NCBI GenBank assembly: GCA_011523305.1
Contig: WTHB01000082.1
Coordinates: 1 to 35,068, forward strand
DNA length: 35,068 nt
Reading direction: 5' to 3'
Origin: Planctomycetaceae bacterium
GTDB lineage: Bacteria > Planctomycetota > Planctomycetia > Pirellulales > UBA1268
Shown here: positions 19,256 to 26,171 of the stretch, in pieces
How positions within the stretch are numbered: the stretch's first letter is position 1
How the letters are laid out: the number at the start of each line of letters is the position of its first letter
Position numbers and translations under genes: made by a program
The notes under the pieces: model-generated
The model's database searches: none
What the model was told of the DNA's origin: nothing
The model's input: the letters and a program-made list of their open reading frames with translations, nothing else

Positions 19256-20452
19256 TCAGTTGAGTTCAAACGGAGTGAAACCGCCCGAAGTGGGCGTGCG
19301 TTCTTCTTCCGCTTTCAGTTTTGCGGCTGCTTCTGGAATCAACTTTTTAATTGCTGCCAGGACCGTCTTGTCTTTGGGTGACTCGTAGATGTCGAGGCCG
19401 AGTCGCCGCAGGGCAGCAGCCTCGTTTTTCAGCTGATCGTTGCCGTCGGTTAATCCGTCGGCAAGTCCGTCGATTGCAGCAGCGAGACAGACCAGCCGCC
19501 AGCTTGTCTGGAGGCATCTGGCCTCCGGCAGATAGCCTGTTTCATTTTCGAGGGGCTCCCCGGTGGGACCCAGCATCGTGGCGACATCTTGCCCGGCGGT
19601 TCCCGAGAGCATGTCTTCGAGTTTCTGTCGCTCGATGGCATCCCAATCGTCACGAACCGCTGCGAGGGCGATCTCAGTGATCTGCTCACTGGTCGTTTTG
19701 ATGGGTAGTTCAATGCCACTGAGGGCCAGCGCCTTGACCACGGTCGCTGCCCGAACCCGAAGATTGATCGGGCGGCTGGCATCTTCTAGCAATGCCACTA
19801 CCGCGGCTTGCAGTGGCCGTAAAACTGCCTTGTCCTCTCCGATCAGCCCAACCAGATCAGCGGCCAGATCCAGCGTTCGCTCCTGCAGCCAGTTGCGACC
19901 CGCAGGTGAAAGGGAATCGTTCCCGAGCGTGCAAATTGCTGTCAGGGTTGGCAGCAACGCGGTGGCCTGTTTGCGCGCTGTATCGCCAGCCGAGCGGCTT
20001 CGCAACGCCTCACCGCGAGCGGAGAGCCCTCTCATGGCTGCCACCCGCACGGCAGGGGTAACGGTGTCATCGAGCACAATCTTTTCGAGAGCAGGCGTGG
20101 CAGCAGCAAGAAGTTGTTGCTGCGGGCCTTGAAGTTCGCCAAGGAGTAGGGCTGCATTAACGCTCTTGATGATGTCGACCGTCTTGTTACGGGCGATTGT
20201 TGTGAGGTGGCTGACCACCTCATCGGCAGCCTGTTTGGAGGCAGGAGAACCGACGGGGAGTCCTTTGAAGAGGTCTTTCGCAAGCGTTTCTCGTTCCCGT
20301 GTGAGACGATCACGGGCACCTTCCGCGAGGAGTGCATCGATGCGGCTTGTAGGAGATGTCTCCTGTGTCCAACCCCGATTCGTGCATGCCAGGATGAATG
20401 ACACAAGGAGCACGAGATGCCAGCAGCAGGTTAAGAAAGAAAGGTGTCGCAT
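19256..20452 (-). CDS. Exported helical (HEAT-like) protein or lipoprotein, function unknown
   Basis: A 398-residue protein from the ATG at 20452 (a TTG two codons earlier is also in frame). The N terminus is a signal sequence, LTCCWHLVLLVSFILACTNR. The ILAC stretch could be a lipobox with Cys as the lipidated residue, but the -2 Leu is unusual. The remainder is nearly all helical, with repeated amphipathic pairs of roughly 40 residues such as VTPAVRVAAMRGLSA and RPINLRVRAATVVKALALSG, which look like HEAT/ARM-type repeats. No catalytic motif is visible. It lies 101 bases downstream of the third gene of the PilM-like cluster on the same strand, so it may be the last gene of that operon and serve the same envelope assembly; that is an inference from position. 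Confidence 0.65.
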   Translation of the reverse strand: MRHLSFLTCCWHLVLLVSFILACTNRGWTQETSPTSRIDALLAEGARDRLTRERETLAKDLFKGLPVGSPASKQAADEVVSHLTTIARNKTVDIIKSVNAALLLGELQGPQQQLLAAATPALEKIVLDDTVTPAVRVAAMRGLSARGEALRSRSAGDTARKQATALLPTLTAICTLGNDSLSPAGRNWLQERTLDLAADLVGLIGEDKAVLRPLQAAVVALLEDASRPINLRVRAATVVKALALSGIELPIKTTSEQITEIALAAVRDDWDAIERQKLEDMLSGTAGQDVATMLGPTGEPLENETGYLPEARCLQTSWRLVCLAAAIDGLADGLTDGNDQLKNEAAALRRLGLDIYESPKDKTVLAAIKKLIPEAAAKLKAEEERTPTSGGFTPFELN

Positions 20453-20497
20453 GGGCAAGGAGATTCACGGGACTCAGAAGGGCGGATGTTTGCTGAA

Positions 20498-20553: not shown

Positions 20554-22452
20554 TTAGAACAGGGGGATTCCATCTGGTCCCAGCATGTCAGGATTGGGGG
20601 GCTGGGGCGGGGTGTAGCCGGGAAGGGTCGGCAGGTAGGCCTCCACCTGCTCTGCCGAAGTGACTGCAGTCACATGCTCCAGTATCCCGTCCGCATCAGC
20701 AAAAAGCATTTCAAGCGGTGGAGGCGGGGTGAAACCGCGACTGATTCGCTTCTTATCCTCCAATTCCTGCTCACCGACGACTCCAAGCAAGGTTTGGTCG
20801 GTCACCACATCATGGGTCGGAAACTTTTCCTTGCGGGGCCGCCCTTGTGCCGTGAAACCAACTTCGACCCGCCGGGACTCTTTCTTGCTGCCGACAATTT
20901 GCCCAAGGTTGGCCGGTGTGGCATGTAGTTCAAAATTGCCAGAGCCCGGTTTTTTGTCCGTCCCTGTGTGTTCATCGAGAACCAGAATTTCTGCAACGCT
21001 TCCCAACCCACCTTTTTTCTTATCGTCGTTCGTGATCATCCGGACCAGCACTTGGCCGAGCGCGGGGATACGAACTGGAGCCGCTGCCATTGCTGGGCTG
21101 GTTTCGGATAGGGCTGCAGCGAGGTAGGGTTCTTTGGTTTGGTCGGGTTCATCAAGAAATTTGGCTGCCACGTTGTAGTTGGGGTTCCAGAGGTTGATGG
21201 TGACGCGGTAGCGGTATGCCTTCCCCGGTTTGACGGTGACATCGACAAAGCGGAAAAGTCGGTACTCATAGGGATTGAGCAGGCCATCTGGACCCAGGCC
21301 CGTAAGTGTGGGGTCGTCTGGCAACATGTCGGGGTCATTCAATTGGCCACTTAACTGAGAGTCCGCAAATGGGCCAGTTTGTGTCGGGTCAGTCATAGTC
21401 CCTGGCGGACCATTTTGCGGCTGACCAAAGGGGCCGCCGAGCCCGCCGGGCATCAGAGGGTTGTCCTGCTGCTGTTCCGCAAGGAGTTCTGTCATTTTCT
21501 GAACAGCCCAAGGGTGTACAGCCGAAAGTCCCCAACGCGGGCCCGACAAGGTTTCTCCGGGCATTCCTGTTCCGCTTAACGTTGGCAGTTCGGCAAGCGT
21601 TGGCAGTGGTGCATAAAAGCCCAGCTGCACGTCCTGCGGGCGAAAGTTCTCCTGATCTGTCAGTTTGAATTGTTCCGGTACCGGGTCTTGTGCAGCCGCG
21701 GACCATGTTTTGGTCCAGATTTCGGTTGCTTTGGCAAGATTGAGAACTTCCCAATCGCCGTCCCTGCCGCCGTCAACCGTTTGACGCTCAATCGTGTAGT
21801 CGCGCCATAGTGGGGTGTCGCGGGCCTCGTCCTGGAAACTTGTCACTGAATACCGTGCGACATACTCATCGACCTGTTTTTTGTAGGGCACCAGGCCGCT
21901 GATGATGACGTAAGGCATGAGTCTCGCTGGCGGCGATGTCACGACAGCCTCGGGCATTCCCATGCCGGTCGGATCAGCAGGAGGCGAATCCATTCCATTT
22001 GGTTGGAGCTGATCATTTTTCGCAATGGCAGCGAGGCCCGCAACAGTAGTGAGTTGTTCCAGCGGAAAGATTTTCGGCGTGGAACGCTTCTTCAAGTCTC
22101 CAAGCGGCGGGCGGTTGAGCCCGAGTTCGATCGCTGGCGGCTCAAGCATTGGGGGACGCCAGTCCGAGGTCGTCGTTGCTGTGATGGAAGGACCCCGGAG
22201 CATTTTTTCGAGAGATCGTCGTTCGTCGAGATCGGGTGTTCGGTCCAGTAGCGACTTCGCTCGGGTCGCTCGCTGCAAGATCTCAGCAGGCGTCATGTCG
22301 GCTGGCAGCATTTTGCTGCGCAAGGCGTTAATACCGCCCCAGGCCAGCGGTAGGCTGCAGAGCAGGGCGATGGCTACGAGCAGTTTCTCGCCGTGGTTTG
22401 CCACAAGCGAGAAGACGGTTTCTGGAGTAATTTTCAGTTTTGGTAGGGCCAT
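20554..22452 (-). CDS. Single-pass membrane protein of the PilM-like cluster, function unknown
   Basis: From the ATG at 22452 the protein has 632 residues; a GTG at 22461 would overlap the previous stop by 4 bases. A short cytoplasmic lead is followed by one membrane segment (EKLLVAIALLCSLPLAWGGI), leaving nearly everything in the periplasm. The middle is Pro/Gly/Gln-rich (for example NPLMPGGLGGPFGQPQNGPP). A beta-type domain begins near FRFVDVTVKPGKAYRYRVTI. The C terminus is Pro-rich (LPGYTPPQPPNPDMLGPDG). The topology suits a periplasmic partner of a PilM/N/O complex, comparable in position to PilP or to Amuc_1099 in Akkermansia, but I cannot show homology to either. It is tightly spaced after the PilO-like gene and surely in the same operon. 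Confidence 0.7.
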   Translation of the reverse strand: MALPKLKITPETVFSLVANHGEKLLVAIALLCSLPLAWGGINALRSKMLPADMTPAEILQRATRAKSLLDRTPDLDERRSLEKMLRGPSITATTTSDWRPPMLEPPAIELGLNRPPLGDLKKRSTPKIFPLEQLTTVAGLAAIAKNDQLQPNGMDSPPADPTGMGMPEAVVTSPPARLMPYVIISGLVPYKKQVDEYVARYSVTSFQDEARDTPLWRDYTIERQTVDGGRDGDWEVLNLAKATEIWTKTWSAAAQDPVPEQFKLTDQENFRPQDVQLGFYAPLPTLAELPTLSGTGMPGETLSGPRWGLSAVHPWAVQKMTELLAEQQQDNPLMPGGLGGPFGQPQNGPPGTMTDPTQTGPFADSQLSGQLNDPDMLPDDPTLTGLGPDGLLNPYEYRLFRFVDVTVKPGKAYRYRVTINLWNPNYNVAAKFLDEPDQTKEPYLAAALSETSPAMAAAPVRIPALGQVLVRMITNDDKKKGGLGSVAEILVLDEHTGTDKKPGSGNFELHATPANLGQIVGSKKESRRVEVGFTAQGRPRKEKFPTHDVVTDQTLLGVVGEQELEDKKRISRGFTPPPPLEMLFADADGILEHVTAVTSAEQVEAYLPTLPGYTPPQPPNPDMLGPDGIPLF

Positions 22453-22457
22453 ATCAG

Positions 22458-23930
22458 TCACTCACTGTCAGCCAGAGGGCTTGCGATATCGTTTCCTGCC
22501 TGGTCCAGCCCAAGATATTCCGGGTCCGGGCGGGTCGCCAAGGCGATCGAGCCTCGCAACTCGACGTCGAGGTCGTATTTCCGAGTTGTCCCAGCCTCAC
22601 CTTGCATGCTCCCTGACCGAAGCGATGGCATGCGAACACTGCTGCCGAACTCACCGCTCTCTCCGAGGCCGCCCTCAGGGTTGATCCGAATCTGCCGGAC
22701 ATCAATCGGGACCGCCTGGCTGGCAAAGGTCCGTAGCAGCAGATCGAGTTTTCGCTGATCGACCTCACCCCGGAACACGAACGGCACCAGGTGCGTCATC
22801 TTCGTGTCGGGAGACATTTCGACGTCTTCTGCCGACAGAGGCGTGCCGTCCCGATCGACGTAAATCCAATTCAACAGTTGGAAATCGGTGTCTTCGTCGA
22901 GTAACTCCATGCCGTCCATGCCAAAGTCTGGCGGACCATCCATGGTCTCCATACCCCCCATGGCGCCGCTTGCTCCAAACCGGGGATTCGGTGGGCGGCC
23001 ACCTTCGCCCTCCATGCCCATTCCCATGTCCATGCCCATTCCCATGTCCATGTCCATCAGGCCATCCATGCCAGTCTGAGCGGCCTGAATCCGTCCGCCG
23101 TTCCGGCCCCCGGGGTTGTCTTCCGCAGCACGGTAGCCAGCCGCAAGTTTCGAGATCGTTGCAACGGCGGCATCGTGACTGCCCGTTGCGGTCTTGTTTA
23201 CTTCCGCAATGATGGTGCAGAGCAAGTCGTAGCACCGGAGTTCTTCTTGGGCGAGCAGCACCTGCGTGGTTGAAGGTGTTGTTAGCCAATTGTAACTCGC
23301 GTAGAGCTCAGACTGATCGGTTGCATCCCAGAGCACAGTGTGCTGGTCGGTCGACCCCTCCGCGTGGCGATCGAATCCACTACGAGGCATAGAGCGTAGG
23401 CCTTGGCCCATCCCTGCTCCGGAGGCGTCATCACTCATTTCCTCGGCGGCATCGATGCGGCTGGGCAGTTTGCGGACAAGTCGACGGACAGTGTTCTGAT
23501 AGCGTTCGAGCAGTCGGGTGGGAAGGGTGCCGGCTGGCCTCAGTGATTTGACCCTGGTGATAAAGTCTGGCCCAAGTTCAGCCGGCCAGTTGCGAAGGGA
23601 CTGCTGTTCATCCCAAGATTGCATCCATTGCTTGAGCACACCACGGCGGAGTTGGTCTGTGGCACCTTCGACCTGTTCACCCCAGTGCTGCTGAGGATGG
23701 CCGAAGTCCTCAAATCCCGAACCCGGGGCGGCCTGATAGCGGGTGATCCCGTCGACTGACTCGATCTGCTGCTCAATCTCGGCCTGGCGTGTATCAATTT
23801 CCCGCAGCAGTTTGGCGTCTGCCGTGAAGGCAAGCGGCACGAGTACCAGTGGCATGAGGACCGCCAGTAACCAAAAATGGTATTTGACGATCTGTTTCAG
23901 ATACGGACGAAGTTGCTCGAGGTAATCCAT
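22458..23930 (-). CDS. PilO-like single-pass membrane protein with a methionine-rich tract
   Basis: A 490-residue protein. Residues 17-36 form a membrane helix (YHFWLLAVLMPLVLVPLAFT), followed by a coiled-coil heptad region (LLREIDTRQAEIEQQIESV), the layout of PilO: short cytoplasmic tail, one helix, coiled coil, then periplasmic domain. Residues 288-306 contain nine methionines in 19 residues, inside a Gly/Met/Asp-rich tract that ends near 341. The last 115 residues contain VPFVFRGEVDQRKLDLLLRT and VRQIRINPEG, which fit the strand-helix-strand pattern of ferredoxin-like PilO domains. This fold is known for Amuc_1100 of Akkermansia, a PVC relative. It follows the PilM-PilN gene by 57 bases and precedes the third cluster gene by a few bases. 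Assignment rests on topology and context, not on a strong sequence match. Confidence 0.7.
   Translation of the reverse strand: MDYLEQLRPYLKQIVKYHFWLLAVLMPLVLVPLAFTADAKLLREIDTRQAEIEQQIESVDGITRYQAAPGSGFEDFGHPQQHWGEQVEGATDQLRRGVLKQWMQSWDEQQSLRNWPAELGPDFITRVKSLRPAGTLPTRLLERYQNTVRRLVRKLPSRIDAAEEMSDDASGAGMGQGLRSMPRSGFDRHAEGSTDQHTVLWDATDQSELYASYNWLTTPSTTQVLLAQEELRCYDLLCTIIAEVNKTATGSHDAAVATISKLAAGYRAAEDNPGGRNGGRIQAAQTGMDGLMDMDMGMGMDMGMGMEGEGGRPPNPRFGASGAMGGMETMDGPPDFGMDGMELLDEDTDFQLLNWIYVDRDGTPLSAEDVEMSPDTKMTHLVPFVFRGEVDQRKLDLLLRTFASQAVPIDVRQIRINPEGGLGESGEFGSSVRMPSLRSGSMQGEAGTTRKYDLDVELRGSIALATRPDPEYLGLDQAGNDIASPLADSE
23017..23052. repeat. Perfect 18-base tandem repeat encoding the Met-rich tract
   Basis: CCCATTCCCATGTCCATG occurs twice in direct succession (23017-23034 and 23035-23052) inside the PilO-like gene, coding on the minus strand for HMDMGMGM-type Met-Gly/Asp alternation. 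The unit is a multiple of three, so copy-number changes would stay in frame. Confidence 0.85.
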
Positions 23931-23987: not shown

Positions 23988-26171
23988 TTAATAGGCCGCC
24001 ATGTCATCATCCATTTCCGGAACGAGTTCGATCGCACCTGGGGACGTTGGTTTCCAGACAAATTGGAGCACGAAGTCGTATCGTTTGACTTCAAGACCCT
24101 GATCTTCGAGGTCATCATCGCGGTCCCGTCCACTCATTCGGCCTCGTGAGCCACGGCCGCGTGCCGGTGCTTGCCCGAGGTTGCCTCCCGTTAAGCCCAT
24201 CTCTAAGCCGAGCCATTCCGTCTGGATGGGATTCGATGTGACAAGTGCGGGGAAGCCTAGGCCCAGTTCGGCTGCGGAGACCCGTTCACCTGCCCGCGGC
24301 CCTGCTATCACGGGGAGAATCGGGTCTTCACTGAGCAGGTTGTCGATCAGTGTCGCGCGGAGGTAGTTCCGGCCCTCGTAGGGCTTGTGTTGATCCTCGT
24401 TGTGGTAGTGGTGGCCAACGAGTTGAATCACCCAGCCAGAACCCGTCGGCCCCTCTTCCTCTGTCTCGTCTGAAAACTCATCGATCGCGGTTTCATTCGG
24501 ATCGGTGTCGTCGCTAGGCGTGGCGGCATCCACATCAGCAGCCTCTTCGGTCTCCGGCTGATCGTTCGCCACGGTTACGGTCCAGTCGTCTCGGACCGAC
24601 TCGAACCAGACGGCCAGGTCCGGGAAAAACTGGCAGTCCATCGAGTCGATGTGAATTTCGTCGTAATTGATGGTCAGCCCATTGCCGGCTGTGGTGTCAG
24701 CCTCTGCGGCCTTCTCAGGATCGACTGGCTGGGTTTTGTCAGGCTCACTCCGCGGCAGCATCGCCTCGACAGCCCGCAGGAGTTCCAGCGTTTGGAACCG
24801 GCGGTCCGTGATCCGCAGCAACTGCTGCTGGGTCGCCAGAATCTCATTGCGGCTGGCCTGCGCCTGGTCAAGTGTGCTTTGGAGAGTTGCTGAGCGGCTC
24901 GTGACCTCTTCTGCCGCCGTGGTGGCTGCCGCGAAGGTGCTCTCGGAATAACTGTTCCAGGCGATAAAAATACCAAGGAAGTTGACTAGTGCAGCGAGGA
25001 GCAACCCCAGCATGGCGACGACCGCCCATGGTCGCTTCGCCCGAATGAGTCGGTCGCGAAGCGATTCGGGCGGCAGCAAGTTGGTCCTTAAACTCGCCGC
25101 GCCAAGTCCCTGCAGCGCAAGCCCGTAGGCAGTGCCGAAGGCCAGTTGGTTTTCCATGAAGGCGGGGGAGCGGATCACGACATTCCCTTCGAGTTCCTTG
25201 AATTCCCGAAGCCGATGGACCTCAAGTTGGAGTTGCTTCGACAGAAAGTCGCTCAGTCCCCGGAGTCTGGCGGCATTCCCGACCAGAAACACCATGCCGA
25301 TGGTCGCGGTGCGATCCTGGCCGGTGAAATAATTCAGCGACCGCTGCATTTCGCTGGCGAACTCATTGAATACAGGTCGCAGTGTTTGGAAGACTTTCTT
25401 CGGGTCGTCGGCCCGGGCGGCGTTCCGCTTGAGGTTTTCAGCCTTGGCAAAGGTCATCCGCATCCCTTGGACGAGGGCGCGGGTGAAGTTGTTTCCACCG
25501 ATCGGCATGGTTCGTTGCCAGATGCGGAGGCCGTTGGTGATGATCAGGTCAGTGGAGTCCACGCCGATCGAGGCCAATACGATCGACGGTGGCGGTGCGT
25601 CCGGGTCGATTTCATCGGCTGGCGGTAGTTGGTCGGCCATGATGACGTTGGCCAGCGCAACCGGTGCCAGTTGCAGAATGTCAACCTCGATGTCGGCCTT
25701 GTTGAATGGTTCAAGCGCCCGGGCGACCTGATCCCGCTTCATTGCGAAGAGGGCGACTTCGGAGTCAATGACAAATCCGCTCTCTTCAATGCCCCCTTCA
25801 AGCCGCTGCCAACTCCAGACCACCTGCTCCAGAGGGAAGGGGATCTGCTGTCGGGCCTCGTACGTGACGATGTCGGGGATCTTAGCCGCCTCAACAGGTG
25901 GCAGCTTGATGAACTTGCTCAGGCCTGCTTGGCCAGGCACTGACACAGCAATTTTGTCGCCGGCAACATCATTCCGACTGAGAAACTCCTCGACCGCGTT
26001 CTGGACGAGTTCTGCTGGATCGGCCTCTGGCTGCGTCAGCAGTATCGGATACTCGATGTAGTCAAAGGCTTCGGCAACCAGTTTGCCGGTATCAGACGAT
26101 CGGCTGCAGCGGAGCGCTTTCAGCCCACACTTGCCGATGTCGATGCCCCAGACGTCTTTGCCGCGTGCCAT
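23988..26171 (-). CDS. PilM-PilN fusion protein, type IV pilus-type inner-membrane assembly component
   Basis: A 727-residue protein. Residues 1-355 are an actin-like PilM domain: WGIDIGKCGLKAL (8-20) is the phosphate-1 motif, PFPLEQVVWSWQ (111-122) a PilM-type stretch, SIGVDSTDLIITNG (201-214) phosphate-2, and NQLAFGTAYGLALQGL (341-356) the C-terminal helix. Directly after this comes LRTNLLPPES, matching the NLLP motif by which PilN's cytoplasmic tail binds PilM, then a membrane segment (residues 382-404), a coiled coil (about 410-470) and a PilN-like periplasmic domain with an acidic Asp/Glu insert (about 560-590). The C terminus is basic then acidic. PilM and PilN are normally separate genes. 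It heads the minus-strand cluster behind a good promoter candidate; the ATG at 26171 has AGG 10 bases upstream. Confidence 0.85.
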   Translation of the reverse strand: MARGKDVWGIDIGKCGLKALRCSRSSDTGKLVAEAFDYIEYPILLTQPEADPAELVQNAVEEFLSRNDVAGDKIAVSVPGQAGLSKFIKLPPVEAAKIPDIVTYEARQQIPFPLEQVVWSWQRLEGGIEESGFVIDSEVALFAMKRDQVARALEPFNKADIEVDILQLAPVALANVIMADQLPPADEIDPDAPPPSIVLASIGVDSTDLIITNGLRIWQRTMPIGGNNFTRALVQGMRMTFAKAENLKRNAARADDPKKVFQTLRPVFNEFASEMQRSLNYFTGQDRTATIGMVFLVGNAARLRGLSDFLSKQLQLEVHRLREFKELEGNVVIRSPAFMENQLAFGTAYGLALQGLGAASLRTNLLPPESLRDRLIRAKRPWAVVAMLGLLLAALVNFLGIFIAWNSYSESTFAAATTAAEEVTSRSATLQSTLDQAQASRNEILATQQQLLRITDRRFQTLELLRAVEAMLPRSEPDKTQPVDPEKAAEADTTAGNGLTINYDEIHIDSMDCQFFPDLAVWFESVRDDWTVTVANDQPETEEAADVDAATPSDDTDPNETAIDEFSDETEEEGPTGSGWVIQLVGHHYHNEDQHKPYEGRNYLRATLIDNLLSEDPILPVIAGPRAGERVSAAELGLGFPALVTSNPIQTEWLGLEMGLTGGNLGQAPARGRGSRGRMSGRDRDDDLEDQGLEVKRYDFVLQFVWKPTSPGAIELVPEMDDDMAAY

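Follow-up and report, generated by a model that had tools for sequence, protein, structure and literature searches.

We found that the DNA analysed here, a stretch of 35,068 nucleotides from a Planctomycetaceae bacterium (the window), encodes one chain in which PilM is fused to PilN, a reading that is well supported. Its product is very likely a stator subunit of a type IV pilus machine, bitopic in the inner membrane, that unites PilM and PilN in one polypeptide with a GspL-like layout. The positions 23988-26171 given for it by the initial annotation are correct, to the exception of the strand, which is the minus strand (Table 1).

Table 1. Features of the fused gene and of the two genes that follow it (window positions).
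Feature	Position	Strand	Basis
PilM-PilN fusion gene, 727 aa	23988..26171	-	ATG at 26171, stop at 23988
PilM actin-like domain, residues 1-356	25104..26171	-	PilM_2 E 7.6e-35; 2ych Z 33.5
NLLP motif of PilN, residues 364-367	25071..25082	-	motif core kept in 26-row alignment; hhalign vs free PilN 91.5%, E 8.6e-7
Membrane helix, residues about 382-404, with basic RDRLIRAKRPW before it	24960..25028	-	hydropathy; AlphaFold helix 368-406
Coiled coil, residues 410-471	24759..24944	-	AlphaFold; hhalign vs Verrucomicrobiota fusions 91.3%
Periplasmic alpha-beta domain with disordered inserts, residues 485-706	24054..24719	-	AlphaFold strands, pLDDT around 90; T. thermophilus PilN 4bhq Z 5.5, weak
490-aa membrane-anchored partner, suggested PilO/Amuc_1100 position	22458..23930	-	conserved next gene, BLAST
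635-aa membrane-anchored protein, third operon gene, suggested PilP/Amuc_1099 position	20554..22461	-	conserved third gene, BLAST

A complete PilM domain and its junction with PilN

The initial annotation had described a complete actin-like PilM domain, an NLLP motif placed directly after its last helix, and a membrane helix at residues 382-404, and all three are borne out. Pfam PilM_2 (PF11104) matches residues 9-354 (E 7.6e-35; 120.9 bits against a cut-off of 27), TIGR01175 (pilM) matches residues 7-355 (152.1 bits against 133), and phmmer against the PDB retrieves the PilM proteins of M. xanthus, T. thermophilus and P. aeruginosa. AlphaFold, run with a 26-row alignment, gives a confident PilM at residues 1-356, which superposes on T. 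thermophilus PilM with its PilN peptide (2ych; Z 33.5, 3.1 Å, 331 residues) and on 5eou (Z 32.4). As 371 residues including a membrane helix lie beyond the actin-like domain, the window protein is not a soluble PilM ending there.

The last PilM helix spans residues 342-355 and the NLLP motif follows eight residues later, within a PilN-type N-terminus (TNLLPPE, residues 363-369) that corresponds to the M-I-x-I-N-L-L-P start of free PilN. The motif lies 17-21 residues ahead of the membrane in fused proteins and 14-24 in free PilN, with medians of 18 in the window family, 18.5 in the Verrucomicrobiota fusions and 17 in free-standing planctomycete PilN. Such spacing, being that of free PilN, indicates that PilN was joined almost exactly at its natural N-terminus, with nearly nothing between. 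In 25 relatives (34-46% identity to the window protein) the motif core is kept, with an invariant proline, and so is K-x-P-W before the membrane; judged from this alignment, conservation of the motif exceeds chance. Some relatives have looser versions (TTLLP, DLEP), so that the conserved core is L-x-P.

The membrane helix is recovered both by hydropathy, with a Kyte-Doolittle peak at residues 378-396 (the hydrophobic segment is at 380-412 in most relatives), and by AlphaFold, as a helix at 368-406. Mean confidence in blocks of 10 residues is around 85-93 across the NLLP segment and the membrane helix, and lower in the helix at 410-471 that follows. Beyond it, strands are predicted at 506-516, 579-588, 638-646 and 693-706, with disordered inserts between them. 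The window protein therefore combines an actin-like domain, a membrane helix and a periplasmic alpha-beta domain in a single chain, which is the layout of GspL.

Identity of the C-terminal half

Three lines of evidence, of unequal strength, agree that the C-terminal half is PilN: profile comparison, a bridge through Verrucomicrobiota, and fold. Our reference set consisted of 14 free-standing planctomycete PilNs, identified mostly by motif and position. Against it, the window-family half from residue 357 gives an hhalign probability of 91.5% (E 8.6e-7), a match that covers the motif, the membrane helix, the coiled coil and the first helix. The fused proteins of Verrucomicrobiota align with the window family over residues 1-472 (100%, E 7.6e-65), and their own C-terminal half matches free PilN over its full length, periplasmic domain included (98.5%, E 2.3e-15; 96.9%, E 1.3e-10 for the periplasmic part alone). 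Matching both the window family and full-length PilN, they bridge the divergent periplasmic part.

As for the fold, the elements of the periplasmic model follow one another as helix-strand-strand-helix-strand-strand, interrupted by inserts, which is the arrangement of PilN (alpha-beta-beta-alpha-beta-beta type). T. thermophilus PilN (4bhq) superposes on it with Z 5.5 (3.7 Å, 90/109 residues), and unrelated proteins reach Z 5 to 6.7 in the same list, so the fold comparison alone proves nothing; a Foldseek search with the periplasmic model returned no match below E 0.1. The window protein gives no match to the Pfam PilN model (PF05137) at E 1, and only 1/14 of the free planctomycete PilNs reaches it at E 0.01. 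The single-chain reading of the initial annotation is thus well supported by the PilM match, the conserved motif, the profile match to PilN and the Verrucomicrobiota bridge. Its assignment of residues 360-727 to PilN holds by profile for the start, the helix and the coiled coil, and is weak for the periplasmic fold (Z 5.5).

Taxonomic distribution and origin of the fusion

A homologue of the window protein is present in all 79 genomes searched in the class, and in 78 of them it occupies a frame of about 700-1070 aa. The sole exception (1/79) is G268, where the fused gene lies in short pieces in different frames (G268:C1:5475980-5477168), representing either a pseudogene or sequencing errors. 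Across the phylum, the match extends beyond the NLLP position in about 118 of 199 genomes (hand count), the frame there measuring 536 aa or more. Frames of 583-602 aa occur in eight further genomes, of family f45, and the two of these that were read are both fused. A separate PilM of about 345 aa followed by a PilN starting with INLLP is also common in the phylum, and some genomes, G167 among them, have both separate PilM/PilN and a fused PilM-PilN; an operon of G167 (L102) contains separate genes for PilM, PilN, PilO-like and PilP-like proteins, a secretin, GspE and GspF. In Verrucomicrobiota, 107/115 genomes match Amuc_1101 of A. muciniphila, and every one of the 22 loci read has PilM and a membrane helix about 25 residues past the PilM end. 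The survey of Planctomycetes that the initial annotation had proposed thus shows fusion to be the common form in this phylum and, further, in Verrucomicrobiota, and not a local oddity.

A tree built from 112 PilM domains has one branch (SH-aLRT support 69) that sets the 74 PilM-PilN fusions, from both phyla, apart from the rest, which implies one change. A single origin of the fusions of Planctomycetota and Verrucomicrobiota may be read from this weakly supported branch, the tree neither demonstrating nor rejecting it. The f13 proteins and the additional PilM of G171 are not labelled as PilN fusions in this tree: both had been candidates and were ruled out, the C-terminal addition being a proline-rich tail in the former and an unrelated multi-helix region in the latter.

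Several other PilM arrangements were observed. Family f13 (L016, L026, L171, L173, L179) has PilM followed by a proline-rich, apparently disordered tail of 180-300 residues, without PilN. In G171 (L167), two PilM genes adjoin with a pilin-like gene (FTLIELMIV) between them, and one of the two carries several C-terminal hydrophobic helices that are not PilN. At L168:3641-6229 (G121) and L169:3513-6122 (G275), the PilM domain is C-terminal in proteins of about 865 aa and no PilN comes after it; the L168 protein has a DnaJ-like start and, still in its N-terminal part, carries a double zinc ribbon (PF12773). Finally, L061:202-1776 (G297) and L062:1450-2967 (G318) code for proteins of 505-524 aa with a membrane helix and a C-terminal Pfam PilN, and an N-terminus matched by no Pfam model, with a short membrane protein following. 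These represent a second, GspL-like fusion in the same order that is not close to the window protein.

Conserved neighbours of the fused gene

The 490-aa gene starts 57 bases downstream of the fused gene, and its product combines a single N-terminal membrane helix with a coiled coil. The 635-aa gene overlaps it by 4 bases and its product also has one N-terminal membrane helix. By BLAST in 16 relatives, the second gene is found at the expected place in most and the third in 14/16; the two contigs with neither end too early to tell, or have no match. In one family the order of the relatives is like PilM-N-O-P-Q, a secretin following the set: in G253, a 1545-aa secretin comes directly after the three genes. 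A further 400-aa protein is encoded directly downstream of the operon in the window (19256-20458, minus strand); it has an N-terminal hydrophobic segment and no Pfam match, and by its look may belong to the HEAT-type repeat proteins.

In A. muciniphila, the order is a pilin-like gene, Amuc_1101, Amuc_1100 (identified by PDB 6lad), Amuc_1099 and a secretin-sized gene, the latter being a 908-aa ORF in a sister genome (L107); the genes are named here as in published accounts of Amuc_1098 to Amuc_1102. The 490-aa family matches the Amuc_1100 family (16 Verrucomicrobiota sequences) by hhalign at 77%, over the N-terminal membrane helix and coiled coil only, and this is only suggestive, since a control between two families with a helix and a coiled coil (Amuc_1100 and PilN) reaches 41%. 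A two-sequence comparison of the 490-aa protein with Amuc_1100 gave no match, nor did the 635-aa protein match Amuc_1099 in sequence; for either protein, Pfam and NCBIfam contain no family and PDB sequence searches found nothing. The parallel with the Akkermansia gene order, that is, position together with weak profile matches, suggests that the 490-aa protein takes the place of PilO and the 635-aa protein that of PilP.

A probable pilus machine with a retraction ATPase

Elsewhere in the same genome, contig C69 codes for a PilT-family ATPase (479 bits against a cut-off of 319), side by side with a PilB/GspE-type ATPase (628 bits against a PilB cut-off of 675) and a GspF/PilC fragment at the contig end. 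A secretin (PF00263) is on contig C105, away from the fused gene. In this assembly, which is 95% complete, the fused protein is the only PilM, and a Pfam PilN search of the genome at E 0.01 found none. As read from its genes, this PilT/PilB/PilC/secretin set favours a type IV pilus machine with retraction.

Alternative explanations

An error of sequencing or assembly might have joined two genes, given that those for PilM and PilN are often adjacent and that a lost stop codon would suffice. However, the same long stop-free frame recurs in 78/79 genomes of the class, in about 118/199 of the phylum (hand count) and at the Verrucomicrobiota loci read, and these relatives refute the idea, to which we assign a negligible probability. 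It is improbable, to a much lesser degree, that PilN is limited to the NLLP segment, the membrane helix and the coiled coil, and that the periplasmic domain is an unrelated planctomycete one. Profile matches of the window family do end at about residue 475, and the fold match to PilN is weak; yet the predicted order of helices and strands, with its inserts, is that of PilN, 90/109 residues of the T. thermophilus protein can be aligned, and the Verrucomicrobiota homologues match PilN across this very region.

Alternatively, the protein may be GspL of a type II secretion system, and the operon part of a protein-exporting machinery rather than of a retractile pilus. In its favour, the domains of GspL come in this order, PulL/GspL is equated with a PilM-PilN fusion in published accounts, and the PilB-like ATPases obtain nearly the same scores from the GspE model. 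Nonetheless, none of the T2SSL/GspL models of Pfam and NCBIfam matches the window protein at E 1, whereas PilM models do; the structure of the cytoplasmic domain is far nearer to PilM (Z 33.5) than to cyto-GspL; and the PilT-family ATPase beside pilB and pilC is above cut-off, while T2SS are described as lacking PilT. We consider this reading unlikely, and retain that of a PilM-PilN subunit of a type IV pilus machine.

Proposed mechanism and implications

In characterised systems, the cytoplasmic socket of the ATPases is made by PilM (PMC11656802), PilN has PilO as its partner, and PilP provides the connection to the secretin (PMC4471445, PMC10191384). The domain order and the operon order of the window are those described above; by analogy with these families, the docking, partners and force transmission of the fused protein would be as follows. 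The PilM domain would lie in the cytoplasm as part of a socket enclosing the ATPases for assembly and retraction; the NLLP segment would run straight into the membrane helix and dock on its own PilM or on that of a neighbour; the coiled coil and periplasmic domain may pair with the product of the next gene (PilO/Amuc_1100-like); and the third protein may connect towards the secretin. The initial annotation had put forward that stoichiometry is fixed at 1:1, that nucleotide state is coupled to the periplasm and that free PilM is not exchanged; all this would follow logically from a single chain. We likewise infer a fixed PilM:PilN ratio with no cytoplasmic pool of PilM, a direct mechanical coupling across the membrane, and a PilM that would be unable to leave the membrane complex. 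The short linker does not forbid undocking of NLLP, and fusion alone is therefore no proof that PilM is locked in one state.

In Pseudomonas, PilN binding has been reported to change the structure and binding partners of PilM, and a model from this work ties the choice of motor, for extension or for retraction, to PilM-PilN contacts (McCallum 2016, as cited in PMC5424180 and PMC11656802). We tentatively propose, as a possibility that we hold with less than even confidence, that the type IV pili of Planctomycetota and Verrucomicrobiota are retractile and equipped with PilT, that PilM never leaves PilN in their stator, and that their machines were inherited from one ancient fusion. If this were true, release of PilM from the PilN chain could not be what switches these phyla between extension and retraction motors. 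With a natural fusion found phylum-wide, in genomes also carrying pilT, the Pseudomonas contact model could be tested without engineering.

Comparison with known systems

PilM and PilN are separate chains in the best-studied bacteria, as the initial annotation had noted, and the domains and the spacing from NLLP to the membrane are alike in the type IVa pilus proteins, the difference being one chain instead of two. The departure from characterised systems is nevertheless weakened by GspL/PulL and by the Amuc_1101 family. A direct phrase search of accessible papers, mostly from outside the subscription journals, found no description of a PilM-PilN fusion in a pilus system; an earlier notice elsewhere is possible.

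The Amuc_1101 family (NCBIfam NF045709, 'PilM-like'; MUL2B of Akkermansia muciniphila) likewise has PilM, an NLLP-like motif, a membrane helix, a coiled coil and a periplasmic domain in one chain, and in its locus the genes that come next are for a partner anchored in the membrane, for a third protein and for a secretin. The window protein scores 197.6 bits with NF045709 over residues 1-472, below the equivalog cut-off of 650. It differs in its longer periplasmic part with large disordered inserts, its neighbours have no sequence match to Amuc_1099, and its own secretin is elsewhere in the genome. Amuc_1101, a gene of the mucin-use locus MUL2, is called a PilM protein in the literature, and would be re-labelled as a PilM-PilN fusion.

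GspL/PulL of the T2SS has itself been described as a PilM-PilN fusion (PMC4471445), and in GspL/PulL/EpsL, as in the window protein, a single chain holds a cytoplasmic domain of the actin-like type, a membrane helix and a periplasmic domain that is PilN-like (PMC10191384, PMC4471445), the likeness in fold being weak for the window protein. In contrast to them, the window protein has a full PilM close to PilM structures and an NLLP segment, and PilT is present in the genome. It is thus a widespread, and probably old, variant of a known design, and what differs from GspL is its setting, in a genome with PilB, PilC, a clear PilT, and only this PilM.
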